In this document: piece after piece, positions 15,145 to 47,380 of the stretch
How the letters are laid out: every line of letters starts with the position of its first letter
Position numbering within the stretch: the first letter of the stretch is position 1
NCBI GenBank assembly: GCA_030407315.1
Contig: JALQPE010002192.1
Location: 1-64,000, forward strand
Reading direction: 5' to 3'
Source: Asparagopsis taxiformis
Taxonomy: Eukaryota; Rhodophyta; Florideophyceae; Bonnemaisoniales; Bonnemaisoniaceae
Length of the DNA: 64,000 nucleotides
Program-made: the position numbers and the translations under genes
Notes under the pieces: model-generated
Seen by the model: the letters and a program-made list of their open reading frames with translations, nothing else
What the model was told of the DNA's origin: nothing
Database searches by the model: none

Positions 15145-16735
15145 CACAGGATAAGCAAAAATAGAGAATATTCCATGGAAAATGCCGTATTGTACAGTAG
15201 AACTAGTCACCATATTTTAGCGGAACGCCCATCCCCAACGTTTGGATAAGGCCCATCGAAAAAAATGTAAAAAATCATGGGCTGAGACCAGCACGGCGAT
15301 TTTGTTTTACAGTAGGCAGGAACCAAGCAGAACTATGGTGTGGCCGTGAGGTGATGGCTGAACCATGTACGGAAGGACACGTAGGGATGGAAATGAACCA
15401 CGTCCATATATGAGCAGGACGGCGGGTTGACTAGAACGGGCCAAGTCACGCAGGCACGGACTGTTGGAATGGAACCAGTACTGTATATGGGTATAGTTAG
15501 ATATGGGGTGCACCGTGACTGCGATATGTGGTGGAAGGTGCAGAGCGATTCGTAGAAATAAACTATAAAATATAATGGGCACACCGTGACGGTCCGGTGT
15601 CTGAAACCAGGCGTAAGCAGCACTCGCTGAATGGACGGTGACCAAAGTATGATTATTGTATTCATTGGAATAATTCCAGAGTAGGTGACTTATTGCTCAT
15701 GGGACGTGACCAAGCTGACTTGTGGAACTGGCCAAACGATAATTTAGAAAGGGACCATTGACTGGGCATGTGCGGCCCAAGGCAAAGCGCGGTTAGTTTC
15801 CAAACTACAGTACTGTGTAAAGCCCGGATATATTCTATTATAACACCTGCTCGTGACACTGGTATTATTCCACCGTGGAGCACTGTAATGGGTACGGTTC
15901 ACTTCCACTGGATGTAGTGGTTGTACCGTCGGGTGGCGTGGACCATGTCCACTGGGTAGAGTGGTTGCACCGGTGGGCGCTCTGGGTAGAAACTGAAAGG
16001 TAGAACGGGCGGCACATCGCACTTTTGCGGAGAAACTGCAGGACGGATAGGTCTGACTGAAACGATATCTAGGTAGAATGGAAATCGGCATAGGGACAAT
16101 GAATTAGACTAGGTTGCAGCCAGTAGCGGGTACGCAAGATTTACGATATGGTGTAGTGGATATGGAATAGGTAAATGGGCAGCTAACGCCAAAAGTTTAA
16201 CGACATGAAGATCATCTGTACACTGCACTACGGAACTATGAACTATGCCACCATGGCAGATACTAAACGGCAAAACACTAGCTCTACATAAAGTAACTAC
16301 AAATACATATAGGCATGAAAAGAGAGATGAGGGGAAGCCAGAAATTTCTGTTGGCACCTGGAAGGAAAAGAATAGATGAATCAATGGTTAGTGCTAGGAA
16401 TGTAACTTCATCAACGCTAGAAGCATGGTTAGAAGCGAGAGAACATACCGTTGATAGTGGAGCCAGAGCTTGAGTAAGCGGATTGTAGAGAACCCAGAAA
16501 CTTCTGCTGGCACATAGATGGAAAGAAGTGGATGACACAGTGGTTAGTGCTGGAAACGGTATGCCAAAAGCTCGATTAGAAGTGAGAAAACGTAGTAATG
16601 ACAGTAGCCCTGGAGAAAGACGAAACAGAAAGTAGGAAAGGCAGAAAAGTATGTTAGCAGAAGAACAACGAAGAACCGCAGAAAAAGACAATGGGAGGAA
16701 TGGCTAAAAGACTAAATGAGCAGGAAAACCTTATC
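15145..16735. repeat. Left subterminal region of TE-b
   Basis: About 1.6 kb with no gene. Many scattered short inverted motifs such as ACCATGTAC, GGACCATGTCC, ACCGTGAC and GGTACGGT occur in both orientations; related ATGGTAC and CCACCATG motifs occur in the right subterminal region. An imperfect direct duplication with a period of about 156 bases covers about 16337..16650 (CAGAAA.TTCTG.TGGCAC and AGTGGTTAGTGCT.G). The open frames here are short and unconserved. Confidence 0.6.
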
Positions 16736-16804
16736 GTAGGATGGAGGCGGCGGGGCACAATCACATCCGTAGGGATGTGATTGCACTCCGCCGCCCCATC
16801 CTGC
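16736..16804. repeat. GC-rich hairpin
   Basis: Inverted repeat with arms AGGATGG.GGCGGCGG and CAATCACATCC around a GTAG loop. The stem is about 30 bp and far more GC-rich than its surroundings. It is present once in the window. Confidence 0.8.
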
Positions 16805-17146
16805 GTAGGTGGTGTGCTCCGAGCGACAGGTGCTGGCGATGTTGCCCGGCGTGACGCAAGGCTTAAATACTGCTGCAGAGTGAGCCCAGAGGTCGCGTAT
16901 TTCACTTGCGTAGTGAGAAAGCGCGCGCTTTTCGTACTGACAAATCAGAAACAAATCATCGATGATCTATGAACACGTCATGGACACGTCATGGACTCGA
17001 GATGGACTCGTCATGAATACGTAATGAAATAGAACACTAGGTAGTATTCTATTTCATTACAGCTGGCGTGGAGCTGCACGCTTGTGAGCGGAAACGTGTA
17101 TTGCAGGCTGAGGAGCCAATGATGAAAAATTAGAAAAAATGACTAG
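16805..17146. other. Spacer, no gene seen
   Basis: Contains a small cluster of CATGGACACGTC-like and CTCGAGATGGACTCGTC-like direct repeats (about 16976..17020) and the inverted pair AATGAAATAGAA / TTCTATTTCATT around 17020..17058. No coding signal. Confidence 0.5.
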
Positions 17147-17207
17147 TTACTGCAGTAAAAAGTGATCTAGGAAGATGCATTTGGTAGATCAGTTTTTACT
17201 GCAGTAA
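17147..17207. repeat. Family-1 hairpin (inner part only)
   Basis: TTACTGCAGTAAAAA..GATCTAG and its complement around a GATGCAT centre. The outer AAATTTGGTAATTTT arms found in other copies are missing. It stands downstream of the transposase gene. Confidence 0.8.
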
Positions 17208-17501: not shown

Positions 17502-20500
17502 TCATGCAGTCCTTGGCGGATATCCATCTGCTCTTGCAAAAATAGAGAAGGAACCACCATCCATAAACGAAGGACCTCCATGCGTAATTCCTCCATTCGA
17601 AGTGCCTTGCTCCACAGAACATAATGAAGGGCTACAATTGTGGAGGAGACCAACCTTACGAACCCCTGAAGTGAGAGGGAGAAACCAGGAGCCGGAATCG
17701 GTGTTCGGAGCAAACGTAGTGGGGGACGACTTCTGCTTGATAACTGGAAGAACAATAGCGTGTGGTGGAGACAGGTTTTCCTGGTGAGATTCGTGTATGC
17801 AAACGTTTCCAGGTGAAGCAATGTTTCCATCAATAGTCAGGTCAAACACAGTGGTAACAGCCCAAAAATAAGGCGAACAGGTCTTCTGTAGAATTCTAGA
17901 AGACGGGGAAGCTGAGTAGCAAGCTTGTACTACACAGCCAGAAGCTATTTCTTGTGGCTTTGAAAAGTCCCGAGACGCAGCAGAGGGCGAAGCTGCAAAG
18001 GCAGGGTGGGCAGAACTGAGACGTGCTCCCTTGCATGGTTTTCCACGAAGCATGACTGCATCCGAATTCTGCCCACAGGAAAAATCCTGCTGTGGTAATG
18101 AAGAGGGAACTCCTGTCCACGAGTAATATGAATATGGAGAAGAGAAGAATGGTAAAGAAGACCTATTCAAATGTTCGAGAAGAGGTTCTTGACAGAGGTC
18201 ATGCAGCGTACTAGCCGGGAGGTTCTCCATGGATTTACAGTGCTCCCGTCCGAATAGAACACGAAGGAGAAACCGTTTAGAACGTTGTCTCTCCACAGAT
18301 GCTGGAGTAGAATTGGAGAAACTTTTCAAAGCAAGATGGAGGCTTCCTTTCCAATAGTTTCCGAGTGCCGCTAACATAGCATCCAACTGTCTGTCAGCAC
18401 CTCCGGAATGCTCTAGACCTCGTTTCATTTGTTGATGTGTTCCTTCGAATGATAGCTCAGCTACCTGGCGAGCGTGTCCGAGCAGAGGAACAGTGTGTTC
18501 AAATGCCTCAATGAGACGGTGCAAGTTTGGCTTATTGTCAAGAATCTTCCTTGCCCGGAATCCAGCAGTCTTGTTTTCCATCTCAATGTGGTCATTATCA
18601 TTCGTTACTATACCTTCTGTCTGCATCTTCCGTTTCTTCGAGACCGCTGTGCTCCGCTGTCTGGTAGGAACAGTCTTGAGCAGGTCATCCACTAGAGTAG
18701 CATATTCTTTCGATAGCTGCTGCAGACGACGGAGACCGTTGTGCGCAGAATTCCCTGTAGCTCTCTGTACTGCCTCAGAACCGTCGATATTTTTCGTGGT
18801 AGGAAGTATGTAGCTGCAGATATAGAGGACAGGAGACGAACAAGTTCTAGGGACAGATGGCGTTGCTCTTCAGAAGCCTGGAGTGACCTTGAACCGCTAC
18901 CTTCGGATGACCTTGTAGTCTGCGATTGGAATTTCAGAGAAGACCTGAAGCAGTGTTCGGCGACGAGGAGAACTGCAAATCTGTCCGAGATTCCCATTGT
19001 ATGAGTTTCACCTGCGTTGAAGTTATATATCCTGTTCTGATTTGCGAGGCCCAATACACGGAGGGCATCCACCATGAACCTGTCGGCCAGCTTTCTCACA
19101 CCATCATTAGGCAAGCTTGAAAAAGCATTGTCCAGAGCATCCTTTGCCAGTCCATGGAGGAGATGGTCAATTCCAACAAACGTCGAACGGTATGGGTCCA
19201 GAATAGCAGGCACGACAGGGATTCGTAGACCATCGTTTCCGAGTGGTGTCCCGGTTGGAACCAGCCCTTTGGACCTAGCTTCATGAAGTAGTCTTTCAAT
19301 GAGATGCAATGGAGTGTCTGTGATATTTTGCACTGTTCTCAAACCCAGATACTTCAAGATGTTTGCAGAACTTTCCGATGACTGAACAGCAGCTGTTCGC
19401 TCGGATGTGCGAAAGTGTGTATCAGAGGTCGAATGTAAACGGGTGTCGTAGCCAAACTGCGAGTTCTTCCCATATTTCCCCCCTCTTACAAAGAAACACA
19501 AATGGCATGGGCAGTCTGCGTTGTGCCCCATGACATCCAGCACATGAGAACAGGCAGGATAATCCGATACGAAACCAATAAAGTCCAGGAAAATTAGACA
19601 TTCATTGCCGTCTGGATCGACATCACGAAACCCCGACGTACATCCTTGAATAATGTCTCTAGAGATATGTCGAAGGATATGGTTTGTACTAACACCAGGA
19701 CCTGTGACACCGATAACGCGCACAGCAGAACTGTTCCGGCGACAGTCCAGCGGAAGACCCATTGGGAGCATATAGCATCCTCCAGCACTCCCTTTCTTAC
19801 CAGAGGCTTCATTGAAGTCATCGCAGTATAAAAGAAATGGATAGACGTAGTATGTGGTACCGCAGCTGAGAACCCCACGGAGATGTGTAGGATGAAAGGG
19901 GCTGGGGCTCGTGCCTGGTTTCAATAACTTGACATTATTGATTGCACGAGTTCCGCCGACAACTTTGTAATGCCCTTCAGAGTTGACGAGAAAGAGCAGT
20001 TTTTGTGATGGGCCTGGCGGTCCGGGAGAGCTGACGACAAGCCCAATGAAGAACTGTATACCACAATTTTGAGTAGGGTTACACTCAGGACTGGGTGATA
20101 AAACTGTCAGGTGATCACCCGGCCGAGCATATTCCCGGAACGACTCTTTCTGAAGGATGAAGGCGGACCCATATGAATGCGGGGAGACCGAAAGCCTACT
20201 ATGAAATGTGGCACCGGAGTTTATCCATGAAGAAGATGTGATAGCTTTGAACGACTCATGGCTGGAAGATAGTAATTCATGTTGGAAAAGGGAACTGAGA
20301 GTAGGATCTAGAGAAGAGGCGTGCTGCCCTGATGTGACATGCAGTTCCACAATACTACCCCCGAAAGCAGGAACGGGAAAGCCGTCTTTATCCGCCTCCG
20401 CCCTCATCGTGTAGTTTTGTCCTTTTAAAGAGTACTCTCTGAATTTTCCTATCCTCGACTGTACACACGTTACCATGTAAACTTAGTATGTCATCCGAGT

Positions 20501-21551
20501 CGGAAGCATCCAATTGTGTGTTATCACGCCACGCAAGGTCGAATATATGTGGTGCAGTAATGTCTGCTCGTGCATATTCGCTTGGTGGAACGATAAGTAC
20601 AGGTGCTGATTGACTAGCTTTGTTTTGTTCGACCTTGCTTCTTCGTAGAATTGCAGAAGAGGCAACACGAGCTGCACTACGCTCTGCGTTTACAGGGAAG
20701 TATACGGTTTCCGAACGTAACCATGCGTTGAAGAACAGCCACGGTCTTACCTTCCGCATAATTGTCGAATAATGGGGTAGACTTCGCTGAACGTGTTTGT
20801 TCGTGGAACCTTGTCTAGCGAAATCGAACAACACGCGATCTTCCTGAAGGTTTGCTGCGGTGCATTTCGTCGACCCTGTCAGTTTGGCGACAGCGTACAA
20901 CGTTGTCCATTCTGTCATGTAATTGCGAGCTTTGTCTGGATTGGACGTGTTCATGATAAAGGGAGAAGAGATTAGGAGCTTCGCTTCTGCCTCCTCCTGT
21001 AGAAACAGGTCGTTGTCATCCGAATCGGAGTCGTTTGTTGCGGTGACGTTCTCATGATGGTCGGAAGCAGCGGGATGGCACAGTTTAGGAACTGTCGCAG
21101 CAGAAGTGACGGGGTCTCTGCCGGAGGATAGTACAATATCATCGTCGCTAGGAGTAATACAAGCTTTTTGAACTTCTGGAACAATTGTTCCAGAAGTATA
21201 CTTGAGTATATTGTTCTGCTGCCCACTATTGGCGTACGTCAAAGGGAGGGTGGTATCCACAGAATTGCTCCCAGGTCTGAAGATATCCTGTGAAGGCGAG
21301 GAAGGGAGGACTGGATCTGGATCTGGGGTCTGCGAATTGGTAGCTATGGGAGCATGGGGAGGGTTCGAAGTGCTACCATACTCTGTTGCCGGGCGAGGAT
21401 GATGGGTTTCTGGTGTATTGCAGTCCATTTCCTGAACGGCAAAAGGATTTGAGACTGTTCTGGATGTCGAGCGTCTAGTCCGATTGCGGACAGGGGCTAC
21501 ATAGTTGAAACGGAGCCTCGGGCCATTCCTAGACTTTCTCGGTCTAGCCAT
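17502..21551 (-). pseudogene. ORF-C of TE-b: full-length Tnp2-like transposase with two 1-base frameshifts
   Basis: Same family as 6597..9509. The ATG at 21551 is chosen because MARPRKSRNGPRLRFNYVAP matches the other copy's MPRTRKSRRGHRL. All core blocks are present: YCDDFNEASGKKGSAGGC, MLPMGLPLDCRR, VSDYPACSHVLDVMGH, CHLC and VGIDHLLHGLAKDAL. The C-terminus extends about 390 residues beyond VDDLLKTVPTRQRS, including DNKPNLHRLIEAFEH, which is missing in the TE-c copy. Two frame changes interrupt it: near 20435..20470, between DRKIQ and REYSLKGQN, and near 18800, between TYFLPR and NIDGSEAVQ. Both sit beside short A-runs, so either recent mutation or consensus error is possible. If intact it would be about 1350 residues, large for Tnp2. 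Confidence 0.87.
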
Positions 21552-21854
21552 ATCTCGATAACCTGGATTGAGGTAGCACCTAGGTGCAAACAGCTGTTTG
21601 GAAGGGAGGGAAACGCTGTACGCCTCTATATTATGAGGATACAAATCTCTATAGTCTATCAATCTGTAGAAGAACGAAATTGGAAGGGGAGATCTCAGAG
21701 CTGACCGTTACAGTCGTTGCAGAGAACATGTTCTCTATTTCCATGGAAGCCAGGAAATAGTGCAAAGTACTGATGAGTATACATGAAGACTGAAAACTTC
21801 AAAGAATGACATAGTTTTTACCAGAATCGTAATTCATCCTATAGTGTTTACTTA
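21552..21854. other. Upstream flank of ORF-C in TE-b
   Basis: Leader and promoter side of the leftward transposase gene. The frame stays open upstream of 21551 to 21662 but is not conserved in the TE-c copy. No promoter element can be named with confidence. Confidence 0.4.
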
Positions 21855-21996: not shown

Positions 21997-22118
21997 TAAA
22001 ATTTGGTAATTTTTTGGGCACAAAAATTACTGCAGTAAAAACTGATCTAGCCAAGTGCACTTTGCTAGATCAGTTTTTACTGCAGTAATTTTTGAGCCCA
22101 AAAAATTACCAAATTTTA
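21997..22118. repeat. Family-1 hairpin (full form)
   Basis: Almost perfect palindrome of about 122 bases: TAAAATTTGGTAATTTTTTG, GGC, then ATTACTGCAGTAAAAACTGA, a CTAG stem and a GTGCAC centre, all mirrored. Together with 22409..22449 it forms the left half of a structure mirrored on the other side of ORF-D. Confidence 0.95.
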
Positions 22119-22907: not shown

Positions 22908-25900
22908 ATGTTTCATCGTCAACGCTCTCGTCTCGCAGCTGCATCTTCCCGCGCTCCAGCTCGGGAGCTGACAGTCCCCGCGATGCCCCGGGCTGGTAGC
23001 ACGCTTGCGAACTACGAGTTCCGGCAGATGACACTTCCGATTGCGGACATTCATGTCACGGAAGAAACATCGCGCGAGGTTGATGAGTCGCATGTAGATG
23101 TGTTGTTTCAGAAGATGGTTCTTGAAGGCTTTCAGACCTCTTCCGTGGGCTCCGTGACTGTCGTTGGTCTAGCCCACGAGTCCGACGAAACACGCTTCTA
23201 CATCGCGGATGGTCTCCATCGTCGTGGCGCTCTTGTCCGAGCCAAAGCGGAAGGAGTTGAACGTCTGGCTTCTATTGTGGACAGCGTTCCTGTTCAGGAA
23301 GCGTTCAGGCCAGATGGACAAGCCATGACGATGGAAGACGTGCTCTACCTGAGTCAGCGGCTGAACGAACTGGTGCACACGGTTTTACCGACCACCATCC
23401 GCGACCGTATTCATGCTATCATCAGCATATACAACTGCAACTTGAAGTACGCGAAGGAAGGGGAAAGGAAACTCTCCAGTATGACAGCTTCGCAGCTGTG
23501 CAACTGGTTCTTCCAGCGTCACTTCAGTGGCATACTCAGGAAGAGTACGGTGACGTCTATCGTCAATGTGGCTCTGAACATGAGACGTTCACCACGCACG
23601 TACGAGGCGTACAAGATGGCCTCTGGTAGGAAGGAAAATGAGGTTGGAATCAGCCTTCTAGTGCTGAAGGACACCGCGTTCACAAAGGCTGAGGACCGTG
23701 CCAGTGAGCTGATGGTTAGGTGCATTCACTACCGCTCTGTGAAATTGCTCCAGTCCTTTGGTCGCATCCCAGGTCTCCAGCTCAGGGTGTATCTCAATTA
23801 CATCAGAGATTTCTACCTGGTAATCCGTGAAGTCGCACCCAAGGTTGGGATGACTACGGACGAGCTGGCAGACCTGGAGGACCTCGAACCGGATGGAACG
23901 GACATGATCCCGACCTGGAAATCCGTGTTCAAGCGCATGGTTCAATATGAAGAAGAACCTGTGCCAAAACAGGAGAAGAACCACGAGCGTCGCCGAGAAG
24001 ATTTCCGAACCGTCATCCTGCAACGTTTCAACATTGCACCGGATCGTGAGACTCCGCCCCCTCCTCCCGGAGCATCTGGCGATGCAGTGCTTGCCACTGC
24101 GGCCAGTCAAGGCGCAAAAGATGTGGGGAAGGAGAGCGAGAAAGCGGCAGAGAGCGTTCCTGCTCCTGCCCCTGTGGCATCAGCCACTCCTCCGAAGTCA
24201 CCATCACAGGTGACTCGGCAGGCTCGCTCTCCGACCCAATTCGGGGAGAATATCATGGAACCTCTCCCCGTTCCCCTTCCCTCACAACCCCTTCCTGAGG
24301 ACGAAATCAATCCGACGGACATTTCTCCTCCTGACTCCCAAGCCAAGCCGGACTCAACAGCCCGCGCCCCTTCCCCCTCGAAGCCCAACTCTCCTCCCCC
24401 TTCCCCCTCCAAACCCAACTCTCCTCCCCCTCCCCCTTCCCCCTCACAACCCGACTCACCCCCCCGCTCCCCCATGGCCGTCTCCCCACCCACGTCTGCT
24501 CCTGTTCCCGACTCTGCTATCGCCACGGAACAGCAGAACCCCGAAACCTCGGTTGAAGCTTCTCAACCGCAGGGGGGTGGTGGGGGGACAGTAGTTTCAC
24601 GCTCTGTGCGCATTCCGCCCGATGAAACTACGCCACGCCCCTTTCCCTGCTCGCTTGGATCACACTGTCGCTTCCCCGGCTATGCCGCTGTGCACAAATG
24701 CACAGCGTGCAACATTAAGCCAGTACACAACCTGTGCGACTATCCTCGAGTATATCACCTCATCCCCATCAAGTACCTCAACAACGGTGAGCGAGACATG
24801 GTGTTCGTCTGCTCCCGTGAGTGCTACGATGGCCGTCAACCGGATGACCCCCCTTCTTGGACCCCTCCTGCAGGGGTCACGTTACAAGAAGCGTGGGAAG
24901 GTGATGCGTACAATCCTTTCGAAAAGGACGCGTCCTCTACCGAGTCTGCTGAAGAAAAGGATAAGCAGACCGGTGAGGCTCCGCGGAGTACGATGGGAGG
25001 GAAGGCGCCCATATCCCGGGAACCAGCCAAGAAAAGTGCCTCTGGAACACCGCGGCGGGGAGAAAAGAGGAGGAGAGAGCCGACCACTCCTCCTCCGACT
25101 CGGATGACTCGGTCCAAGACCAGAAGTGCCGCTATCGCAGAGCAACTCATCGCTCTCGGTAGCCCGTCTTCTCCCCCTGTCTCCCTTCCGCTTCCTGCAC
25201 AGCCACCCTCATCTGGCGAAAAGGAGCGTGAAGGTGAGATAGAAGACGGCGAAACCCTTACAAAGACGAAGGTGACTTCCAAGGGGTTTCGGGTACACAG
25301 GTATGAGGACGAGCAGCCACCGCCACCTTCCTTTCTCACGGAGCAGACCACGCTTGCCCAAGCTGCTACGTTCGTGCGTTCAATTTCGGGTCTGCTCCAT
25401 CCTGAACACCGCTCTGGATTCATCATGACGAGTGGGGAGGTGGAGGAGATCAGGGAGGATATCAACTCCGCGGCTGGTGGTACATCCGAGGAGAGGATTG
25501 TTTATTGGGAGCGGGCAAGGGCTAGTATTGATTTCGATGGATACATCGTCCTCGAAGACATACTAGGAGCTTCCGATGTACGGTCTGCAATCCACGAACT
25601 GCTCTCTGGGTTTGCCCAAAAGTTCGATGACAATGTGGAAGGGGCGTGGGGCACGATTCTGAACTCCGGTTCAGCTGCCCAGGATGCCCGGGGTGGCGCG
25701 TCTCGCCAGCGGTACATGACCCCCCGCTCGGCTGTCATTGAAGACCTCGACGGGGAGCAATCCATGTCGCTGGCTCATGACAAGGTTTCCGTGGATGTCA
25801 TCCTCGCAATTATAGCGGAAATGTTGCACTTGGAGGATTCCGTTTCATCTTTGAACGGATTCAAGAAAGGCTCCAAGCTGCGCTTTGGGAGGACAGGACT

Positions 25901-27169: not shown

Positions 27170-27291
27170 TAAAATTTGGTAATTTTTTGGGCTCAAAAAT
27201 TACTGCAGTAAAAACTGATCTAGCAAAGTGCACTTTGCTAGATCAGTTTTTACTGCAGTAATTTTTGTGCCCAAAAAATTACCAAATTTTA
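27170..27291. repeat. Family-1 hairpin (full form)
   Basis: Near-perfect palindrome with GCAAAGTGCACTTTGC at the centre, CTGCAG boxes and TAAAATTTGGTAATTTTTTG outer arms. Mirror partner of 21997..22118. It separates ORF-D from ORF-E. Confidence 0.95.
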
Positions 27292-35262: not shown

Positions 35263-36474
35263 CTATGTTTGCTTTTGTACAATGCAAAATGAGTGAAACA
35301 TGTCTTGCACTGTGAGGTGATCAGCGAGCTTTTCTGGCGCTTTCGTCGACTCCCATCCATCCTCGACAAATTTTATGCTCGTCTCCAAGATAGATGTCAT
35401 GCCTAGATGTTTTTCTACACCCTCTGCCCCTGCAGGAGACCGGGTCCTCGATGCCAGTCCCCCCCAATACCGACCGATCGCACTCTGATCACATTGATCT
35501 ACGCTAGGGTACATAAGCTGCCTGACGGTAGATCCAGCCATTCTCAATGGGAGCGGAAGTCCTTGGCATATTTCCAGAACGTGGTCCAGGGCGTCTCGGT
35601 TCTAATCGGAGAGTAAAGAAACATCTGACATCTCCAAGGCTGCGTAGTGACAAAATATTCGAAGGCTTCTTTCAGCGTCAGAGTTTCCAGGGTCGATCTC
35701 TGCACAAAGGTTGTGACTAAATACATCGGAAACAACTCTGCTGCTTGTGGATGTCAGAATCTTCAATGATGTACAGTTGTTCCCTTGCACGGCTTGACAC
35801 GTAGCACAGGCCAATCTGTACTCATCTGCATTGACATCGCTAACGTCATCGAATAGAAGCAGGAAGTGCTTCATGGACAAAGGATGGTTGATCATCATGC
35901 AGTGCGTATCTTCTGAAGCAGCGAGCTACTTGAAATCTGCTACAAAATCTGGACATGCGGATTTGACAAGCAACTCGAGTTGGCGGATGAAGGAGGAGAG
36001 TGTTATGTCATGACCAAGTCTGAAAAACCACAAGCCATCGCGGTATTTGTCGCTGATCTCCTCGTCATTACCGAGAGCACAGAGGATAGTAGTCTTCCCT
36101 GCGCCACCAATACCAACAAGCACGACGGAATTAACGCCTGGGTCTTCAGACAGAAGGGCGTACTTCACAGCGCTTTCTGGAGTCGTGGAGGATGGCGATA
36201 AATCCAGTACCGGGGGCAGAATGATTGGAACGTAGAAAGGTCTCCTGAGGAATTGCGGCTGGGGGATGAGACGTGCAGATGGATCTGATGAATTTGGAGC
36301 GGGGGAACATGGAGACGTGGAGGATGTCAGAGTTGCAGACGAGATGGCTGATGCGCTGGAATGGGCGGCGGATGCGATGGTTCGGTGAGACGTCGGTTGA
36401 TTTGCGCGGTTAAAACGAAAAGTTGGGTTAGGTGAGCTTAGATTGGAGCGGTTTGATGGCGGAGCAAAGCGCAA
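35263..36474 (-). pseudogene. Cargo gene 2 of TE-n: NB-ARC (STAND) NTPase, two in-frame TAG codons
   Basis: From ATG 36474: a Ser-rich N-terminus, then VVLVGIGGAGKTTIL (Walker A, residues 121-129). After TAG at 35926..35928, in the same frame, come KHFLLLFDDVSD (Walker B) and LKILTSTSSRVVSD (sensor-like). After a second in-frame TAG at 35602..35604 comes ICQGLPLPLRMAGSTV, the GLPL motif. The frame then closes at TAG 35263. NB-ARC ATPases are switch modules of immune or apoptotic sensors and normally continue into winged-helix and repeat domains. Those are absent here, so the gene is also short. Motif order and spacing are normal, which makes the identification firm. The two nonsense codons make it a probable pseudogene. 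Confidence 0.85.
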
Positions 36475-37139
36475 TTGCCCATTATGGACGAGAGAATGTT
36501 GTTTCCTGTGGAGAAGACCGGGAGACTAACAGGACGGTAAGACCAAAAGCTGTGGATGTCGCATGAGCGGGTTGCCATCGACAAGACGGCGTGTGACGAC
36601 CTATTCAGGCTGATTTTGGGCGTCTTGTATGTCTGAAAATTGTAAGCTAATACAAGACAGCCTGTCATACGCACTGTCGTCGAGACCAGGATATGATCAG
36701 ATACATAGTAAACTTGGACGGAAGCCGACCAGAGTTCTAAAGCAACATGGGACTTCCACTCACGCCATTCAACGAGGCATAATTCTATATCCGGGAATGG
36801 CAGGAACCAATCAGAGGAACTCGTCCAATCACTCGCTTCCGATATTTTCGATTTCCTTTTCGTCTCTATCACATGTTGTCCACCTAGATTACACTGTTTT
36901 CCCGGCCACAAATTAGTAGTCGCCGTACTTGCGAGAAATATGATGACAAGTACAGCTCTCAAAGTGGGCAAGGCACCTATGGGTTTATGCTTCAGCGTCT
37001 TTGCGTCTAGTAATGTATCTCTGGCGCAGTGCGGCTGTAGTGTACGCGATTCAAATGGAGATCCCAAATTGGGGTGTACTGAAGGTCGTGCAGGCGATGA
37101 ACACACGTGTAGCCAGGACACATTATGCTACACGTGTTA
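36475..37139. other. Region upstream of the NB-ARC remnant
   Basis: An open frame runs on the reverse strand (36438..37121) but overlaps the NB-ARC start in another frame and shows no domain. It might be shifted 5' exon sequence. Left unassigned. Confidence 0.3.
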
Positions 37140-37640
37140 TGGTCAGCGTTTGCACGAGTGTATTTGTGCAGATGGCTTGTGGGTGGTCGTGAACCGGTGA
37201 CGAAGTCGACACGTGCGTAGCTGCGCAAATAGCTCGTCGGTGGTCGTGAAACCGGTGACAAGGTCGACAGCTGTCCCTCTCTGAAGCCGGGTTGAGCCAG
37301 AATTCACTAGACGCGTTCCCACCTTTGCTAGTTGCCGGGTCGAGATGGATAAGATTCCAGGGTTACCTTTCGTCCTCGGTCGTGCGAGTAGTGACAACAT
37401 CGACACGTGTGTAGCTGTGCAAATGGCTTGTCGGTGGTAGTGAAACCGGTGACGAGGTTCACACGTGTGTGGGCGTGCAGCTGGCTCCAGGGTAGTTGTG
37501 AAGCCGGTGACGAGGTGCACACGTGTGTAGCTGTGAGAATGGCTTGTCGGTGGTCGTGAAACTGGTGACGATGTCGAAATGTGTGTAGTTCGTGCGCAGT
37601 CGTGAAGCCGGTGAGCGCCATGTGTTGGTTGCAGTACATG
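37084..37640. repeat. Minisatellite of about 58-60 bases in TE-n
   Basis: Units such as GTCGGTGGTCGTGAAACCGG followed by TGACGAGGT..ACACGTGT recur at about 37190, 37246, 37439, 37499, 37557 and 37604. The stretch at 37084..37150 also contains one copy of the 125-base unit found at 38797..39420, so the arrays are related. Confidence 0.75.
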
Positions 37641-38207
37641 GGCGCATTAGTGGCTGTATCAGTTGGTGGTATCTGAGTCAGGGAGAATGCAGGATGGAAT
37701 TCTGATGCTGGACAGGTAGAACACACAGATCTCACAATTATTTCAAGCTCCTGAATTGTGCTGTCGGGGCTGACGGATATGAGACCTGTGCTAAGTGTGT
37801 CAATACCAAGATCAGAGTCCGGATTTCTCCCCTAGGTAATGGCTGTTCCCGGTGCTATGCTATTTTACGTCTCAAATAACCAAATATGCGATGCAGAACT
37901 GCATCGGAATCATGGACACGAGCAGTTCCACTGTAAAAACCATGGTAGAAGACACATGTTCGCTCCATGTGTTGAAGACTGACATGGAAGTGAGAAACTT
38001 TTCCAACCAGTGTGGACTACACGGGACTGCAAGAACCTTCGTCCAGAACTGAGGAAGTAATGCTGTATTCATATACGCTGTGTGTCATAAGTGATTGGCA
38101 TCTTGAAAGGCATTCACAGAGTCTACAAAGTAGATGAGTACAGCGCGCTAGAAAAGGATCCCGCAGAGCAGAGGGAGTTTCTTCCATGAGCAAATGCCAA
38201 GACAAGC
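37641..38207. other. Spacer inside TE-n, no gene seen
   Basis: No conserved frame or recognisable repeat. Short open frames only. Confidence 0.4.
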
Positions 38208-38570
38208 CATGTCACTGGTTGTGCAACCTGTGCTGGGTGCAACCCTAAATGACAATTTGCTCCGAAATTTCGGCTCGTACCAAGCATAGCTTCTCCTGGT
38301 GGGTCCAAAAGCCATGACGAACCATGTCACTGGTTGTGCGACCAGTGATGAGTGTAACCGTAAATGAAATTTGGTCTGAAATTGGTGTTGCAAGGGTGGG
38401 AGGTACTCCTTTTGGTTCCGAAAGCCATGACGATCCATGTCACTGGTTGTGCGACTAGTGCTGTGTGTAACCCTAAATGAAAATTTGCTGCGAAATTTTG
38501 GCTGGTAGCATGGCCTCTCCTGTTTGATCCAATAGCCATTGTAAGCCATGTTACTGGTTTTGCAACACAC
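38208..38570. repeat. Tandem array with a unit of about 113 bases
   Basis: CCATGTCACTGGTTGTGCRA recurs at 38208, 38322, 38435 and 38546, followed by CTAAATGA.AATTTG and GAAATTTTGGCT-like blocks. The units are about 80 percent alike. Confidence 0.82.
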
Positions 38571-38796
38571 CCGACAGATACCGAGTTGGCCGCGACACGG
38601 TGCATGGCAAACAATATCAATAATTTCAATTTCACCAAACATCATCTGTGTTTGCATTGCTGCCATCGCCCGCGCAGCTGAGCTGAGCCATGCCGTGCCG
38701 ACTGGTTGGTGAACCGAAACAATTGATACGGTACAGAGCAGCGCCAAGTCGAGCCCAATCCGTTGATTTCGATCCAACTTTCCCCATTGTGAACCA
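38571..38796. other. Short spacer between arrays
   Basis: No gene or repeat recognised. Confidence 0.4.
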
Positions 38797-39420
38797 GAGG
38801 TCGTGCGGCCGATGACTACACGTGTAGCAAGGACACATTATGATACACGTGTTATGGTCAGCGGTAGTGAAACCAGTGACATGGATGGTCTCACTGAGGA
38901 ACCAAAATGTGGGTGTGCGCCAGAGGTCGTGCAGCCGATGACCACACGTGTAGCCTGGATACATTATGATACACGTGTTATGGTCAGCGGTAGTGAAACC
39001 AGTGACATGGATGGTCTCACTGAACACCAGAAATGGGGCGGTGTGTACCGGAGGTCGTGCGGCCGATGACTACACGTGTAGCAAGGACATATTATGATAC
39101 ACGTGTTATGGTCAGCGGTTGTGAAACCAGTGACACGATTGGCTCACTGAGGAACCAAAATGTGGGTGTGCGCCAGAGGTCGTGCGGCCGATGACCACAC
39201 GTGTAGCAAGGACACATCATGGTACACGTGTTATGGTCAGCGGTAGTGAAACCAGTGACACGAATGGCTCACTGATCAGCTGGAGGAGGGGGTGTACCGA
39301 AGGTCGTGTGGTCGATGACCACAAGTCTAGCCTGGATACATTACACTACACGTGTTCTGGTCAGCGGTAGTGAAACCAGTGACACAAACGCACTCATTGA
39401 CTGTACAATGTGGTCTGGAA
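38797..39420. repeat. Tandem array with a unit of about 125 bases, five units
   Basis: GAGGTCGTGCGGCCGATGAC or close variants start at 38797, 38923, 39051, 39176 and about 39300. Each is followed by ACACGTGTAGC, GATACACGTGTTATGGTCAG and GTGAAACCAGTGAC. The two ACACGTGT boxes form an inverted pair in each unit. Confidence 0.88.
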
Positions 39421-39798
39421 CACTTATGAGGGGTAGCGAAATCAGTGACGAGTATGTTCACAACGTTATTGAAACGTGAGTCCTAGAAGCAGTGATATCG
39501 TTGACCCCCACCAATGCTAATGGAAATGTTGACTGTTTTGTTTTCGTCCGTGGCAGAGAAGCAAGTGAAACGCACATGCACGATACTGTCATCGTTGTAT
39601 CAACGACGGTCCTGACTCTGCGGATAGGTAACATATCTCAATTGCACCGTAACCTCCGGTGTGCTTAATGGGCCATTTTTTATCTCTAGATAGGTGATAA
39701 ATAAAAGTACACCGGGGATCTCAAATCTCGCTTAGTTCTATTTCCGAGGTCAACGGATTCGTACTCTGCTCTTCGCAATTCATTGTACCACTGGTCGT
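39421..39798. other. Spacer inside TE-n, no gene seen
   Basis: No conserved frame. Contains one more decayed GAAATCAGTGACG block and the inverted pair CACCTATC.AGAG / CTCT.GATAGGTG-like around 39680..39700. Confidence 0.35.
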
Positions 39799-40236
39799 GT
39801 GGTATCGTGGTATTCATCTCATTCGTTGGCAACCAGCCTGGAAATGGTTCGGCGCAGACTTATACGTTCTGGACCGCATTGCAGGCTGCGGAAAAATCGA
39901 TTCAGATCTTGGACAACTCCTGGAAACGCAACTGCAATAGCATGTGTTCCACCTACGAGGGAAAGTCTTCCCAGCCGGGCTAGCTTTACAGACAGTGTTC
40001 TGGATAAAGATGCTGATGCTGTAATCGACAGGATACTCAGCAACCCCGATGAGGAAGACGAGTCTGATACCGAAAACGGCGAGGAATACTCTTTCCACTT
40101 TACATGGCAATCTTTGATAGCTGTTATGTCCGTGACTGGATCAGTGCGTTTTTCAGTCGATCAGAACACATTTTTTGTTACCTGTGTGAACTGCCTCACT
40201 TCTTCCGTGATTCGAGTTGCAGCTATACATGCATGA
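39799..40236 (+). pseudogene. Possible gene fragment in TE-n
   Basis: A 145-codon frame beginning at GTG. The middle, ADAVIDRILSNPDEEDESDT, has an acidic, coding-like composition, but no ATG, domain or paralog supports it. It could be an internal piece of a captured gene. Low confidence. Confidence 0.25.
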
Positions 40237-40404
40237 TCCACAGAACACAAATGTTCTGCAAACACTACCCTCCACCAGGTCAGCCACTCATCAGCACTCC
40301 TGGATGGCGGTTCACATTACGTCGTAGATAGATCCCTGGGTTACCCTCCTAGAACGGCATAAACTGTACTGATCCACAACCCGAAATATACAATTCGTTT
40401 CGGC
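40237..40404. other. Spacer inside TE-n
   Basis: Nothing recognised. Confidence 0.3.
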
Positions 40405-40495
40405 AGTCACCGGTTTCAAAACCTGTTTCTGCTTCAGTGTCACCGGTTTCAAAACCTGTTTCTGCTTATGTGTGTTCGTCACTGGTTTCGAAACA
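40405..40495. repeat. Short direct repeats CACCGGTTTC..AACCTGTTTCTGCTT
   Basis: Two nearly exact copies of about 42 bases and a third half copy (TCACTGGTTTCGAAAC). They share the CACTGGTTT/AAACCAGTG core with the larger arrays at 37084..39420. Confidence 0.75.
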
Positions 40496-41899
40496 ACTGC
40501 CATTGTTCTATTACGATAAATTGGTTACATTAGGCAGCCCTTGCATATTTTTCCGCTCTTCTATTCTCGCGTGAAAGGTGCAGCTTTCTTTCTTTCTTGC
40601 ATTTCATGAAATGCAAGTGCACTTGAGAAGGAAATCCTCCGACGTCTGAGGCTTTCCTTCTCCAGTTAAACTACATTTGCGCTAAACCGCTGCCCTCAGC
40701 TGTCAGTGGTTGTGCAACCCATGGTCTCTTCAACAACTGCAGCCCTCCATCTCATGTTTCACTACTGTGCATACCCATCAATATGCAGACAAACACACAT
40801 GCTTGTCAGAGGTTCTCCAGCCGATGACATCCTCCGTCATGGGTTTTCACAAAGTACCTATTACGGGCAACATCACACACATCCCAAGGCGTATCTCTAG
40901 CCGTCATCACAAACTTCTATATCACTTGGCATTAATGTTCCCAGACTGTGCCAGGTCATTCCTTCAACAGGGCGTGAGAGTGGTTATTTCCTCCTTTCTA
41001 CGATGATTCTATTTTTAATATTCAACCATGATTGTATTGCCAGGCCAGTCTACTCAAATAAATTGACAGATGATTGAGTTCCACTGTTCACAGCTGTGAC
41101 TTGGCAAGCGATACAAACCGTTGGCAGGTAGTACGTCCCAATTCACATTGTGTCTTCCGGGCCAATGACCAACAAGTTTGCCAAATCACTCAGCCCGCGA
41201 ACCTAGGTTTTTCTCTACTCCTGACACCTGCCGCAAGTTCCCAATTCTGCCCCTAGACGATCCTCCACTCCTTCTTGCCTCATATAAATTGAGAGAGAAC
41301 TCAATAACCTCTCTCCAGGAAAATTTCGCTCATGCAATTTCCTCACACTATCGTTCCGAACACCTTCTACCTGTTGCACGCTTCTTGGCAGGTTCATTTT
41401 CCTCATCAATCAACTACTTCACATATCATCTTCATCATTGCATGGTTTTGCCGACTCACATTTATCCCAACTCCGAATGGCCTCCTTGGACAATGGATTG
41501 AATCGATCCAATGGAGACAGCACTACTTTCAAACTATTTTGCTCCCTTCAAGTAACAATATTTCGTTGGTACTCGACTACTTGTTCATGGCATGGGATTG
41601 TGCCGGTCCGTGGATTTGTACTCACCATTCCCAGACGCTCAAAAACCCGCCAGTGGTTGTGCAACCTGTGTTTCCTGATATCACTCTCCACTATCATTAC
41701 CCAGGCTGACCAATTGTTTTTCTTCACTTGTACATTTCTTCATTCTCTTCACAGTCTGTACATCAACCACACTCCATCCATCTCAAATTCAAATACCAAG
41801 AGCCGGATACTGTTTTGGTGATGCATCTATTACTCTTCATTATCGTTAATATAGCTATGGTGATCTTTCCTTCCCAATAAATATTGCTTCAGAGCGTCT
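40496..41899. other. Long spacer inside TE-n, no gene seen
   Basis: About 1.4 kb. It contains isolated GTGGTTGTGCAACC motifs (about 40706 and 41655) and AT-rich stretches. The longest open frames are unconserved. Confidence 0.4.
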
Positions 41900-43231
41900 G
41901 TTGCCTATACAACTACACTTCTTTACCATATCTGTCTTCAAAACATCCCGAAATCTAGTGTTCCCAGAGCACATTGTGGCATTTCTGGTTTGAAAATTAG
42001 GTTTCAATTTACACCGTTATGGTATTTCTGGTTCCGTAATTTAGAGCTCTTAGAACGGTGCACAGCATCCATGTCTTTTAGTGATAGTGGTCCCAGAGCA
42101 ATTTATGACGTTCCTGTTCTCAAATAGCATTGTTCCTAGAACGATATATACTGTTCATGACTTCAACTTGCATTAATCACAGAACGCTCTCTACTGTTCA
42201 CCATTTCGATGTTCACTGTTCTCAGAACTTCTCAGGCTCTTCTAGGTACGGTCCGTGATGTTCCAGGTTCAGACTTTCTTACTTCGCAGAACAGTCTACA
42301 CCGCTCTCGGCTCCTCAAAACAGCGTTCTGGGAATTGTCCGCGGGTTTCCTGAATACACTTCTTAGTATTCCTCTGCCGGTATGTGCTGTTCCTGGCTAT
42401 ATACTTCTTCATCTCCGGGAACAGTCTCTACTGAACCTCTCTACACTTATCACTGTTCATGGAACATCACTCATCGTCTCTATGTTGCTCCTTTGGTATT
42501 CGAAGAACAGTCTGTGATGATCCATGCCGTCTTTTCTGCTCTTCCGAGGACAGTATATGGTGTCCTTGTTAGTTGGATTCATTGTTCCCAGGCCTTTCAA
42601 CAGTGTTCCTGGTTTCTATGCATACTGGCTCCGGATCAATCTTCGGTGATCCCAGTTTCCATCTATACCACTTCAGGGACTGTCTTTGCTGTTTTGTTGC
42701 GTTCCATGTCTGCATTCGTATAACAATCGTTGTCGTTCCTGTTTCCAAGTTCACTGTTCCACGAACGCTATGTTCCGTTTTGCTCCTCTCAATACATTGC
42801 TCCACAGAACGGTTGTTATTGTTCGCAGTTTCGATATTACGTCAGACTACACCGTTCATGTGGTGTCGTTTGTATAGTTCCTGGAGTATTCGAAGCTGTT
42901 CCGGGTACTCAACCACACTGTTCCCAGAACAATGATTACTGTCCCAGTATGTAAACATAGTGTTCTTAGAACAGTAGGATTACTGTTCCAGGATGTAAAC
43001 ATAGTGTTCTTAGAACAGTATGATTGGTTACTGGCTGTCCAATACAGCACTCTCAGGAACGGTCTTCATCGTTTCTCATGTTTGAAATATCGTTCTGGAC
43101 ATTGTCCGTACTGTTCTCAGTTTTAAATATACTGTTCTCTGAACAGTGCTCTTCTTGTTCCATGAACAGTGTTTGGTGACACAATAAAACACTGTTTCAC
43201 TGTTCTCAGCGCATTTCGTGCCTTCCTAGTG
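41900..43231. repeat. Right end and subterminal repeats of TE-n
   Basis: About two dozen copies of ACTGTTC / GAACAGT or one-mismatch forms, many as pairs (TGTTCTTAGAACAGT at about 42961 and 43011), occur over the last kilobase and end in the terminal repeat CTTCCTAGTG. The region is about three times longer than the left one. Confidence 0.85.
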
Positions 43232-43233
43232 AC

Positions 43234-44567
43234 CACAGGTGGATTCCTGCACAACGTTGCTTCTTGCTGCCCTGTCGTTTTCGCAGACTTCAAGTTCAAC
43301 TTCTGAGGTAAGGCAATCTAAGAGATCTCTTATCGGAACGGCAGTAGGGAAACGACATGTGTTCTTAAAACGCTCTATTATCGGAACTGCGTTTATTTCA
43401 ATGGCAAATCACAGAATTGTGCGATGGAAGGACTCGACGAGCAGGAATGCTGGGGTCCTCGATCCTGGGGAGGAGGAGGACTTGAACAGCAATACTCTAT
43501 CTCGAGACTATGCACTACGCAATGCTACAGTAGTGCCCATCGAAAAGCCGTCTTGGCTGCACATTTCCCAACGAGCTCTTTTCCATGCCATGGATATTTC
43601 GATGCCCACGGAGGCAGAACGAAACGTGGAACAGTCTACGCATTTGCAGGTTACTCTTTCAAAGCGTCGCCGACTGTCTGGTTCGAAAGAAGCACGCCGT
43701 ACTGGTACATCCTCTTCATCTTCTTCCGCTGTATCCAACCTTTCTCCGTCTGACTTACAGTCTATTCCGATTATTACCTCTGCACTACGGCAGCTTACAC
43801 AGTTCTTCAACACTTCCCGGAAACAGATGAAAATGGAATTGGTCAAACAAGCATTCTTCCTCATCCACCGAGATATGAAGGCAGCTGTGGATGTTTCTCC
43901 TGCCCATGCTGTTTCCACAACAGAAATGTGTCCACCTGACTCTATTCCGACAACTTCGAGAGCTTACGGAACAGGAGAAGAAGCTCTCGAAGTGTACTCA
44001 AATGATTCCATCTTCTCAAATTTCATTCTGAGCCGTCCTGAGCTTCACATTCAGGTTACTTACATAGTTCAGGTGAGCGGTGATATCGATGGTGAAAACA
44101 TTGCGAGTACGCGAGTGGAGAAGTTGGCTGTCTGTTCATTCTCCTTTCTTACTCTAGCTATGATATTGTTATGCAGTTTTTGCCAATGTACACAACTGGA
44201 GATGCTCTGTCATGAACCTCATGCTATTCAAGCATGTTATAAGATTGCAATATGCCTCCAAGGTTTATTTAACGAAGCCCTGAAACAACAGCCTACATCT
44301 CATTTTGGGAAGGATGGATTCCCCTTGCGCGTTACATGGGGACATCTTGAGCTCCGGGACTACCTCATGGGAGGTGACTGCCTCACGGGGATCATTAGAA
44401 AGAAGAGAAACCTAACAGCACAAGAATACGAGTATGTCCGTTTCGTTTCAGGCTTCAGACATACTGAGCGCTCAGAAGATAACCCAGCAAACAGACCAGT
44501 TTCCAATCATGATTGTGTACCTCTCGAGGAGGGTGATGAACTTGGTATTTCTTTAATTGGCATGTAG
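43234..44567 (+). CDS. ORF-A of TE-b, 3' part
   Basis: Continues the frame of 32262..32598. SCTTLLLAALSFSQTSSSTS, VGKRHVFLKRSIIGTAFIS and IVRWKDSTSRNAG follow TE-a closely. KRRRLSG and ALRQLTQFFNTSRKQMKMEL are conserved, and the end EGDELGISLIGM corresponds to ELGISLIDV and ELGISLVV of the other copies. An apparent GTG start at 43239 is not needed. Convergent with ORF-B, 126 bases away. Confidence 0.87.
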
Positions 44568-44693
44568 AACTGTTCTAGCTGGAACACCGCCGTCTTCATG
44601 TGACTGTAGTAGTTCCCATTGCTTGCCTCTGCTCCGCAATGTATGCTTCAGAATAATTAAACTAGTTCTTCCATGTTCATCTCACTACCTGTA

Positions 44694-46388
44694 TCATTTT
44701 ATGTACTCCTCTGCCCTTTTCTCTGACACACTATACCCCACCACATCATTGACCACATCTTCCGATATTAACTTGCCTATTCTACATGGTTCTTCCACAC
44801 CACGGAATATGACATACGGCATATGCACTCTCAATGTTCCCCACAACATGTCACCAGCCCTTCCTCTTTTCCTTTGCGTTGTAGGTTCCCATTCAATGCG
44901 GAAACATTTCTTTCTTTCGCTTCTCCACCCTTCTAGACTCCCGTCACCATCGAACCCCCCGTGCACGCCACATATCGAGGGACATTCCTGCAGCTCCATT
45001 CCGTTCACATATTCACCTTGGACTACAGCACTACCGTTGCGAGCCAGACACCATACGTTCGATTTAGATCCGGCAATGCAGAACGAGCTACTGCCAATTG
45101 CAACAGATGTCGACTGTGCTTCCATCGTTTCCGAGCACAATATCGTACCAAACAACCGCAGAGCACATGGCCTCGCTGTTCCGTTCACGTCACCACACTC
45201 TTCATTCTCCTCCCCTTCCGAGTTGCTTATGTTACGCCTATGAACCAGAGACTCAGTTCGCCATCTGTGCCCCAATCCTAGCAGATCCAATAGTGTGGAA
45301 AAACTGGAACACGTAATGTTCACAGCTTCTCCGCCATTTCCAGCCACTGCCGCGTGAAGCCCTGGGTACACTTTGTAATACCCCCCTCGATAGGTTTCTG
45401 CTGTTCCCTTTAGCATTTCCCGGAATAGCTCAGTGCTCAATGAGATTGGAATCTGGACAGGTCCGGTAATAGCCGTTCCACTCGTGCATGCACCGTCAAT
45501 CTCACCATGTGGGTAGCCACCCCCTGGGGTTGACAAAGTGCTTCGATTAACCTGTTCCACGACTTTCTCTACCGCACGCTGCAGGAGCATTAACAAAACC
45601 TTACCAGCCGATACTGTTGATGCACAATTTAGAACCCTTTCGTTCCAACCAAGCCGAATCTCGCTAGCATTTCCAGAAAGCATTATATTTTCTAGTGTTC
45701 TCAGCCTTGTCTCCATACCACTGTATGTTTTGACGTCAAGTGCTGATTCCACTTTTGGCTTCTTCCTCTGCGGTGATATCGCTTCAGATTCTCCATCTGA
45801 TTGGTCATGACATTCTACTCTCTCCGCTTCGTAATCCACAGCCTCTCCATTGCTCGTTCGCCACGGTGTCGGGGGCTGGCCCCCCGACATCAACTTATTT
45901 CCGAGCAGAAACTTTACGTTTTCGTAGGCGACACAAGGATAATTCATTTCAGGAATAGCATCGTATAACAATCTGCCTTCTGCCACTGCCATTTCATTAT
46001 GACTCGGCTTCACAGCGTTCGAATGCCGCCACGTAGTGACTTCCAAGACTGATATCTCCTTTTCCTCCCTCGTCAACCTCACGACTGCATCATCCACATC
46101 CTTTCTATTCTGCTCCACCACACCGGGCGTGTACATTCCATCTCCTCTGTCTACGTCGATGCGGTCTCCCACTGACGGCTTACCACTGCAGACAGGATAC
46201 TGCTCAGGAAGTTTCATTTCCACAACCATAGCCTTCCACCATATTGCGTCATCGCCAACTTGGAACCATACGTCTATTTCCGTTCCGACACATGGGAGTG
46301 CATCTACGGCAGCTGCCCGCTCACGCTCACGACCAGCTTTCGCTTTTTCGCTCTGTCGCCTAATTCGCAATGATTCACGCCTCGTCAT
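44694..46388 (-). CDS. ORF-B of TE-b: Tudor/Agenet-like N-terminal domain protein, intact
   Basis: 564 residues, same start and same stop context as the TE-a copy. The N-terminal Tudor/Agenet-like block (TEIDVWFQVGDDAIWWKAMV) and the second barrel-like block (VGDRIDVDRGDGMYTPGVVE) are conserved. A linker with RKKPKVES follows. The C-terminus is conserved (TLSTPGGGYPHGEIDGAC; QIPISLSTELFREMLKGT; YPGLHAAVAG; FRIEWEP; LRVHMPYVIFRGVEEP). Differences from TE-a are scattered substitutions with no indel, which suggests protein-level constraint. Function unknown beyond a probable binding domain. Confidence 0.82.
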   Translation of the reverse strand: MTRRESLRIRRQSEKAKAGRERERAAAVDALPCVGTEIDVWFQVGDDAIWWKAMVVEMKLPEQYPVCSGKPSVGDRIDVDRGDGMYTPGVVEQNRKDVDDAVVRLTREEKEISVLEVTTWRHSNAVKPSHNEMAVAEGRLLYDAIPEMNYPCVAYENVKFLLGNKLMSGGQPPTPWRTSNGEAVDYEAERVECHDQSDGESEAISPQRKKPKVESALDVKTYSGMETRLRTLENIMLSGNASEIRLGWNERVLNCASTVSAGKVLLMLLQRAVEKVVEQVNRSTLSTPGGGYPHGEIDGACTSGTAITGPVQIPISLSTELFREMLKGTAETYRGGYYKVYPGLHAAVAGNGGEAVNITCSSFSTLLDLLGLGHRWRTESLVHRRNISNSEGEENEECGDVNGTARPCALRLFGTILCSETMEAQSTSVAIGSSSFCIAGSKSNVWCLARNGSAVVQGEYVNGMELQECPSICGVHGGFDGDGSLEGWRSERKKCFRIEWEPTTQRKRGRAGDMLWGTLRVHMPYVIFRGVEEPCRIGKLISEDVVNDVVGYSVSEKRAEEYIK

Positions 46389-47378
46389 AGTTCCTCCACG
46401 AAATAAAGATACTACAACGCACTATCTGCAATTTTGTTTAGGACAAGTCTTCGTCGACTTCTTCACTAGATACTACTTCACCCATGTCTGTAACGTCCAA
46501 TTTTTCATTTTTTATCGTATGATACGAATTCACTACCTTGTTCCCTACTGCTGCACAAGTTTACAAATCCACTAATATTGCGTTTAAGATACTAGTAACG
46601 CTTAAAGCCAGGGCGGAACTCACTATTCAGGTCAATCTTGTGTATGCGGGAGTGACTTTATTACAAAATTTTGCGACTTCGACAGTTACTATGCCGTAGT
46701 ATCTGTGCTAAAAATCAACATAGATGGTGCCATTCTTTACTAAGTAATACTACAGGAACTAAACTCAAGTACAATTATCTACTCTTTCGACCGTACCCTA
46801 CCTATGGTAGAACAATGGCCATATCGAGATTAGCTAGTTCACGTCATACACTCTGTATCTCGCCTCTTTCATATGATTCTGCATGGACGTCCAAAACGTG
46901 ACGTCATCGAAGCGTATGGCGCGTTGGAACAGTCAGTACCACTCCATCCCTCTACCGTCACTACATTGCTACGACTACCACCAGTACCTCAGACCGGCGT
47001 GACCATCAATGTTCATGGTTCGAGTCCAACATGGTACTGTCATACATATGGTTCCCTCGTTTCGTGATTCCGGCAAGTAAATTCTAAAAATAATGGAATA
47101 TGCCACCTCCGGTCACCGTCATGACCAACGCGACGTGTCTTTGTCCTTTCCAATGTTATTTTTCCGTACAGTAGTGGAAAATTCCACCATGTCACGGTGC
47201 TTATACCCACTCCCACGGCGCAGTTTCATTCCATTACATTCTTTACGGTATTTCCACTACTTATCTATGGCACGGCGCCGGTAATTTCTGCGAATTTTTT
47301 ATGGTTTGCCATTCCACTAATTTCTAATGGTCCAGACCATAAAATTTACTGGTTTTTCAAAAAATTGCTTATCCTGTG
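46389..47378. repeat. Right subterminal region and terminal repeat of TE-b
   Basis: Collinear with 5608..6596 of TE-a over almost its whole length, including TCCGTACAGTAGTGGAAAAT and GCACGGCGCCGGTAATTTCT, and ending in the shared terminal repeat. No gene. Confidence 0.82.
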
Positions 47379-47380
47379 CT

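Follow-up and report, generated by a model that had tools for sequence, protein, structure and literature searches.

In the red alga Chondrus crispus, EnSpm/CACTA families of transposons are enlarged to 16–20 kb and carry 4–5 open reading frames (ORFs) instead of 1–2 (PMC6431247, citing Kojima et al. 2013). Some fungal DNA transposons carry TET/JBP, a number of them within the CACTA-related CMCT clade, which is described by CA..TG termini, target duplications of 2–5 bp and a DDE transposase with C(2)C and H(3-4)H (Kojima 2025, PMC12730594), and HarbingerS and MuDR transposons of Phytophthora bear a SET gene (cited in PMC12730594). Here we describe A2, an element in a 64,000-nucleotide stretch of DNA from the red alga Asparagopsis taxiformis (assembly GCA_030407315.1, contig JALQPE010002192.1, positions 1 to 64,000 of the forward strand; hereafter the window). 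A2 is a copy of a high-copy, CACTA-like DNA transposon of about 22 kb. The reading that we favor, with modest confidence, is that this transposon, which is predicted to move by cut-and-paste, has a five-gene cargo that likely marks its own DNA and chromatin and thereby keeps the element expressed and mobile. The features of A2 are as follows.

15143..15144, no strand: target-site duplication CT, left copy, from flank comparison
15145..15158, plus strand: left terminus CACAGGATAAGCAA, a 14-mer
17147..17207, no strand: palindrome core past the 3' side of the transposase, from self-comparison
17502..21707, minus strand: transposase region, split over three reading frames
21997..22118, no strand: 122-bp palindrome in the gap between transposase and ParB2OG, from self-comparison
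22908..26447, plus strand: ParB2OG, one open frame with motifs of a ParB-like N-terminus, a Cys/His-rich stretch and a 2-oxoglutarate (2OG) dioxygenase-like C-terminus
27170..27291, no strand: 122-bp palindrome in the gap between ParB2OG and MTSET, from self-comparison
27669..31142, plus strand: MTSET, one open frame, a DNA amino-methyltransferase of beta order fused to SET, by Pfam
31332..31453, no strand: 122-bp palindrome downstream of MTSET, from self-comparison
31844..31962, no strand: 119-bp palindrome upstream of ORF-A, from self-comparison
32262..32598, plus strand: ORF-A, 5' part (a single frame of 565 amino acids (aa) in unbroken copies)
32599..43231, no strand: nested CACTA-type element of 10,633 bp in ORF-A, with CACTAGGA ends and an AC duplication
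43234..44567, plus strand: ORF-A, 3' part, its continuation past the nested insert
44694..46388, minus strand: TUD, a 564-aa gene called Tudor-like, without a family match
47365..47378, minus strand: right terminus CACAGGATAAGCAA, a 14-mer
47379..47380, no strand: target-site duplication CT, right copy, from flank comparison

The inverted ends of A2 are CACAGGATAAGC, an exact 12 bp, at 15145 (+) and 47378 (-), giving 5'-CA..TG-3' termini with short inverted repeats (CACAGGATAAGCAA...TTGCTTATCCTGTG). The empty site is found near 59979, in the minus-strand homologue in element B2, with a single CT in place of the two at the filled site. Matching ends, CT duplication and empty site had all been claimed in the original prediction, and all were located in the sequence. 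The 32-kb size claimed there for a giant element was overstated, although the mobile unit itself stands: A2 spans 32,234 bp, of which 10,633 bp are the separate nested element, and compact copies measure about 22 kb. The nested CACTAGGA element is missing from copy C1000, whose ORF-A site is uninterrupted, and lies outside the compact unit. An NB-ARC-like P-loop fragment within it (35929-36525, minus strand; E 6e-4) is below the cut-off. The description of ORF-A as an interrupted gene holds for ORF-A of a host element, B1, which contains A2, but A2 also carries an ORF-A homologue of its own.

To follow the element beyond the window, the source assembly (141.5 Mb in 3156 contigs) was searched. 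The CACAGGATAAGCAA 14-mer occurs 225 times (96+129) and the same pattern read backwards 0+0 times; a 26-bp form of the left end has 119 exact occurrences and a 28-bp form of the right end 74, with 0 for the control in both cases. The recurrence of the CACAGGATAAGCAA ends is not due to chance. In all five of the other contigs with facing ends that were compared, relatives of the transposase, ParB2OG, MTSET, ORF-A and TUD lie between the ends; several genes are broken or interrupted in these copies, and extra inserted DNA is present in C384/C98, C635 and C1000. Since C98 and C384 have common flanks and are 99.7–99.9% identical over aligned blocks, they represent two versions of one insertion, and four independent insertions remain. 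With C98 omitted from the count because its flanks are those of C384, a 2-bp flank duplication is present at eight of twelve independent end pairs (CT in the window, TC in C635, TG in both C1000 and C86, AC in C2263, GA in C1986, and CA in both C1844 and C1931), against a chance expectation of about 1 in 16. C635, C384 and C86 each have, some 190 bp in from the left end, a minus-strand open frame of 288–307 aa that is putatively coding.

Eight copies run from end to end over 21.5–22.8 kb. The complete sequence of one, C86, was compared; by match coordinates at least one cargo gene lies between the ends of C2263, C1726, C2078, C1847 and C1986, and among the matches listed no cargo gene lies between those of C1754 (the copy at 149-171 kb) and C1844. 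The spacing from MTSET to ORF-A is 4990–5010 bp at 20 of 39 MTSET loci; among the matches listed, ORF-A is at another distance in 6 and there is no ORF-A ahead in 13. By coordinate subtraction, MTSET lies 4.6–4.75 kb downstream of ParB2OG, on the same strand, in 10 of 12 intact ParB2OG copies. The original prediction that the five genes are mobilized as a unit stood to fail if the ends did not recur or if other copies showed the genes moving separately, and this did not come true.

Set beside the described systems, and compared by description, the element is very probably of the same general kind as the enlarged, CACTA-type Chondrus families with their 4–5 ORFs, although its compact copies exceed the 16–20 kb given for those families in the available text. 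It is best filed within that giant CACTA-like kind. The CA..TG ends, the 2-bp duplication and the empty site agree with the termini and duplications of the CMCT clade, whereas the CACAG..CTGTG ends differ from the PlavakaA/B ends TGT..ACA and CATCA..TGATG given in the available text of PMC12730594.

The transposase, split in A2, is a single open frame, measured stop to stop, of 1401 aa in C635 and 1408 aa in C86. Its alignment has conserved YCDDFN, DYPA, CHxC (CxxC) and FEATHQ (E-x2-H) stretches; H(3-4)H is not clear. The conserved acidic and CxxC stretches would fit a CACTA-type enzyme, and none of the transposase forms tested had a Pfam match, leaving the earlier Tnp2-like label at the level of motifs. 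As its own frame is broken, A2 likely depends on transposase made by other copies.

The predicted fusion of a methyltransferase to SET is firm by Pfam in the window copy (N6_N4_Mtase PF01555, E 8.9e-14; SET PF00856, E 4.5e-5). In beta-class enzymes the DPPY motif precedes the motif for S-adenosylmethionine (AdoMet), and in seven aligned MTSET sequences DPPYN and a G-T stretch are invariant, with DPPYN before the AdoMet motif; the beta-class assignment of the original prediction is therefore supported by this order as well as by PF01555. The family leaves N6-adenine versus N4-cytosine undecided (PMC8885841, available text). The SET domain retains the final YG tyrosine. Eight MTSET relatives are present in the protein database, and both domains are over the cut-off in all five distant ones scanned (P0007–P0011, 26–39% identical). 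Relatives as distant as 26% identity have the fusion, by which a single polypeptide would join the methylation of DNA to that of protein. At least 22 full-length intact copies were counted among 40 match rows (the best 39 of 3828 candidates scored), and dS between the window MTSET and two same-subfamily copies is <0.01, a divergence that indicates recent spread.

Two further ideas about MTSET were rejected. In a scan of viral contigs at least 78 loci matched, with best segments at 20–51% identity, but the tblastn matches stop before the SET part, and a viral or phage origin was set aside on that ground; a ParB region common to MTSET and ParB2OG was set aside on a profile comparison probability of 0.5%. 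The distant relative P0008 bears a DGAHR motif. Separately, C384/C98 have a nested element inside MTSET (L011:3199-9052) with another PF01555 methyltransferase, in which Pfam found no SET domain, beside a DUF7869 protein (E 2e-49). In this genome, transposons may commonly carry DNA methyltransferases.

A methyltransferase of this type could also work the other way, with the cargo enzymes restraining the element or its neighbors by writing a silencing mark that keeps copy number or competitors in check. The bdelloid N4CMT offers a precedent, being an amino-methyltransferase captured from bacteria that places N4-methylcytosine (4mC) at transposons, with silencing together with histone methylation (PMC8885841, available text). 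Like MTSET, it is a eukaryotic protein in which an amino-methyltransferase of bacterial type is linked to a chromatin domain, but according to the same text N4CMT is a host gene with SPPY and a chromodomain, whereas MTSET has DPPY and SET and is transposon-borne. The SET domain could lay a repressive mark, and a writer and an oxidizer together would permit on/off control. Against this, the 119 left ends and the near-identical intact copies amount to recent spread, and intact enzymes kept by a selfish element are more simply explained as helping the element. We consider restraint rather unlikely.

Selection on the cargo was estimated as the ratio of nonsynonymous to synonymous substitution rates (dN/dS) between two subfamilies, with one copy pair per gene and whole-gene dS of 0.34–0.97 for the four cargo genes. 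The values are 0.167 for MTSET, 0.20 for ParB2OG, 0.155 for ORF-A (C1000 vs C86) and 0.255 for TUD, and on these comparisons all four cargo genes are under purifying selection. ORF-A and TUD have no Pfam family match above the cut-off, and the Tudor label of TUD was not sustained. These ratios (0.16–0.26, at dS up to 0.97) bear on the suggestion that the additional genes came from the host or from bacteria and ride along, doing nothing for the element. Captured genes are frequent in large transposons, and some copies are broken, for example the C2234 MTSET with three stops. We nevertheless regard passenger capture as very improbable, given the constraint, the gene order and spacing alike in many copies, the related genes in element B and a possible third family, and the fact that recent copies consistently retain MTSET and ParB2OG intact. 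The left 6 kb with the transposase is about 97% identical between the subfamilies and the enzyme genes 76–80%, which suggests recent exchange of modules between them. Twelve ORF-A copies (C91, C207, C226 and C348 among them) are 78% identical and share one identical score, and look like a third subfamily in a very recent burst.

ParB2OG is assigned at the level of motifs, DGLHRR in its N-terminal region and H-x-D...H...R in its C-terminal region. DG(L/G)HR is retained in all five aligned sequences, and the H-x-D, the distal H and the R in the aligned A copies and a metagenomic relative (55% identity); the protein database holds one relative, at 55% identity. At least 12 full-length intact copies were counted among 49 matches at ≥97% (the best 39 of 8651 candidates scored). 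Some of the intact-copy counts for MTSET and ParB2OG may be doubled by the presence of two haplotypes. ParB2OG had no Pfam match (E<=0.1), its ParB region no PDB profile match to a ParB chain, and its 2OG region no credible PDB match, and the family labels of the original prediction were not upheld. AlphaFold models of the ParB and 2OG regions, with a predicted local distance difference test (pLDDT) of 44 and 35, respectively, were both too poor to use; the order of strands and helices in the ParB-region model looks fitting, at that pLDDT of 44, and the model had no Foldseek match at E<=0.001.

These results leave room for a real multi-gene transposon whose ParB2OG is no DNA oxidizer, having another fold or being a dead dioxygenase, so that the pairing of writer and oxidizer would be misread. 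The lack of Pfam and credible PDB profile matches, the unusable 2OG model and the loss of H-x-D in element B all speak for this. The retention of H-x-D, distal H and R in the A copies and in the 55% relative speaks against it, as does a dN/dS of 0.19 over the 2OG region (0.11 over the ParB region). We judge it unlikely.

Further features of the element lie between its genes. The 122-bp palindromes of the A family are near-perfect, and none of 17 full palindromes in the window, C86, C1000 and C635 falls inside a gene, with gene borders set by hand and the two palindromes of a second copy, A1, placed by eye between its MTSET and ORF-A matches. There are 441 occurrences of the palindrome half-site and none of its control, a count that covers the whole assembly, inside elements or not. 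The palindromes of element B form another family and likewise lie between its genes. Compared with the window, C1000 and C635, the copies C86, C98 and C384 have ParB2OG and MTSET each inverted at its own position, with gene order unchanged, and recombination between the flanking palindromes would be a simple explanation of the flips.

Under the favored self-marking reading, the transposase would act on the CACAGGATAAGC ends and move the unit, the methyltransferase of MTSET would write an N6-adenine (or N4-cytosine) mark, and its SET domain would methylate a histone or another protein. The ParB-like protein may bind the palindromes, bringing its oxygenase domain there; the palindromes could serve as docking or promoter sites, and recombination from palindrome to palindrome would flip whole gene cassettes. 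Joined into one self-marking system, in which MTSET writes DNA and chromatin marks, the ParB-like oxygenase edits them at palindromes and cassette flips switch expression, these steps make a more detailed scheme that we put forward as speculative and doubtful in its entirety. Element-encoded proteins that act on element sites and counter silencing are known in VANC of the Arabidopsis VANDAL elements and TnpA of maize Spm; to our knowledge, VANDAL and Spm elements have no methyltransferase or oxygenase gene.

Several observations weigh against self-marking or against parts of it. Plant-type CACTA elements have many short subterminal repeats, and in the terminal 1.2 kb at either end of A2 no 10-mer or 12-mer is present in three copies. 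The two-base duplication is missing at 4 of 12 end pairs (C384, C1847, C1754 and C2026), and the transposase dN/dS is 0.47 at dS 0.16. The SET domain of MTSET has N-V at the position of the canonical N-H motif, and the ParB and dioxygenase labels of ParB2OG remain at motif level. No palindrome was found in the ORF-A/TUD gap, and the transposase/ParB2OG gap of C635 has partial arms only. MTSET was not seen in the window's B sequence, and in the dioxygenase relative of element B an A replaces the aspartate of H-x-D; the full enzyme pair thus appears dispensable for some related elements.

The fungal TET-bearing transposons would be the nearest functional parallel, sharing a 2OG-type oxygenase gene that is predicted here from motifs, but the available text of PMC12730594 mentions neither ParB nor a DNA methyltransferase cargo. 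The Phytophthora SET transposons belong to other superfamilies, and fusion to a DNA methyltransferase is not mentioned in that text. In a literature search by titles and abstract openings, with Repbase Reports and most subscription journals outside its scope, no transposon-borne PF01555-SET fusion, ParB-oxygenase or palindrome-bounded flippable cassettes were found. Transposons with one epigenetic enzyme are known; in this one, MTSET is accompanied by an oxygenase-like protein and by two other conserved proteins. With numerous nearly identical copies that are under purifying selection and have palindromic sites of their own, self-marking becomes directly testable, and intact and broken copies in one genome provide natural controls.

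The window as a whole is a nest of related CACTA-like elements, and the features outside A2 are these.

1..6596, plus strand: A1, right part of a second same-family copy, ending at 6596 in the B1 transposase gene
6597..15144, no strand: host element B1, left part, with transposase (minus strand), 2OG-like gene and ORF-A
9727-10077, 10653-11012 and 13111-13379: B1's own palindromes
11290-12876, plus strand: B1 2OG-like gene
47381..51576, no strand: host element B1, right part, with TUD homologue and right end
47569-49308, minus strand: B1 TUD homologue
51565-51576: B1 right end CACAGCATGAGC

A1 holds an MTSET fragment (minus strand), ORF-A, TUD, the right end at 6596 and two palindromes. ORF-A of B1 begins at 13443, and A2 is inserted within it. 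All three nested insertions are in genes of related elements: A1 in the B1 transposase (6564-9509), A2 in B1 ORF-A (13443-15144) and the CACTAGGA element in A2 ORF-A (32262-44567). At 52158-55699 (+), two overlapping frames match the ParB (~30%) and 2OG (~27%) parts of ParB2OG, and a CACTAGGA end lies at 57041 (-); frames and end may together represent a third element family.

The fungal frame of the original prediction is unsupported by the source genome. Fungal_trans and DUF6534 had no match there, an absence that is unproven since 14 prokaryotic control genomes were also blank; the ribosomal L3 search did match. The uL3 gene is a single open frame whose scores are 639 bits with 8azw, taken as a plant chain, and 638 bits with 8esq, taken as one of fission yeast, and it is equally near to both. 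Stretches of the rDNA may be of red-algal type and would suggest a red alga as the host. A fungal/oomycete 5.8S pattern had no match in the genome, where the 5.8S that is present reads differently. More than one 5.8S-like type occurs (C3152, C2568, C1320 and C1142, at 147, 134, 63 and 45 bits), and the assembly may be a mixture of DNA from more than one organism. Finally, self-comparison of the window reveals a tandem array at 61981-62590 with a 43-bp period and repeats that are about 96–99% identical.

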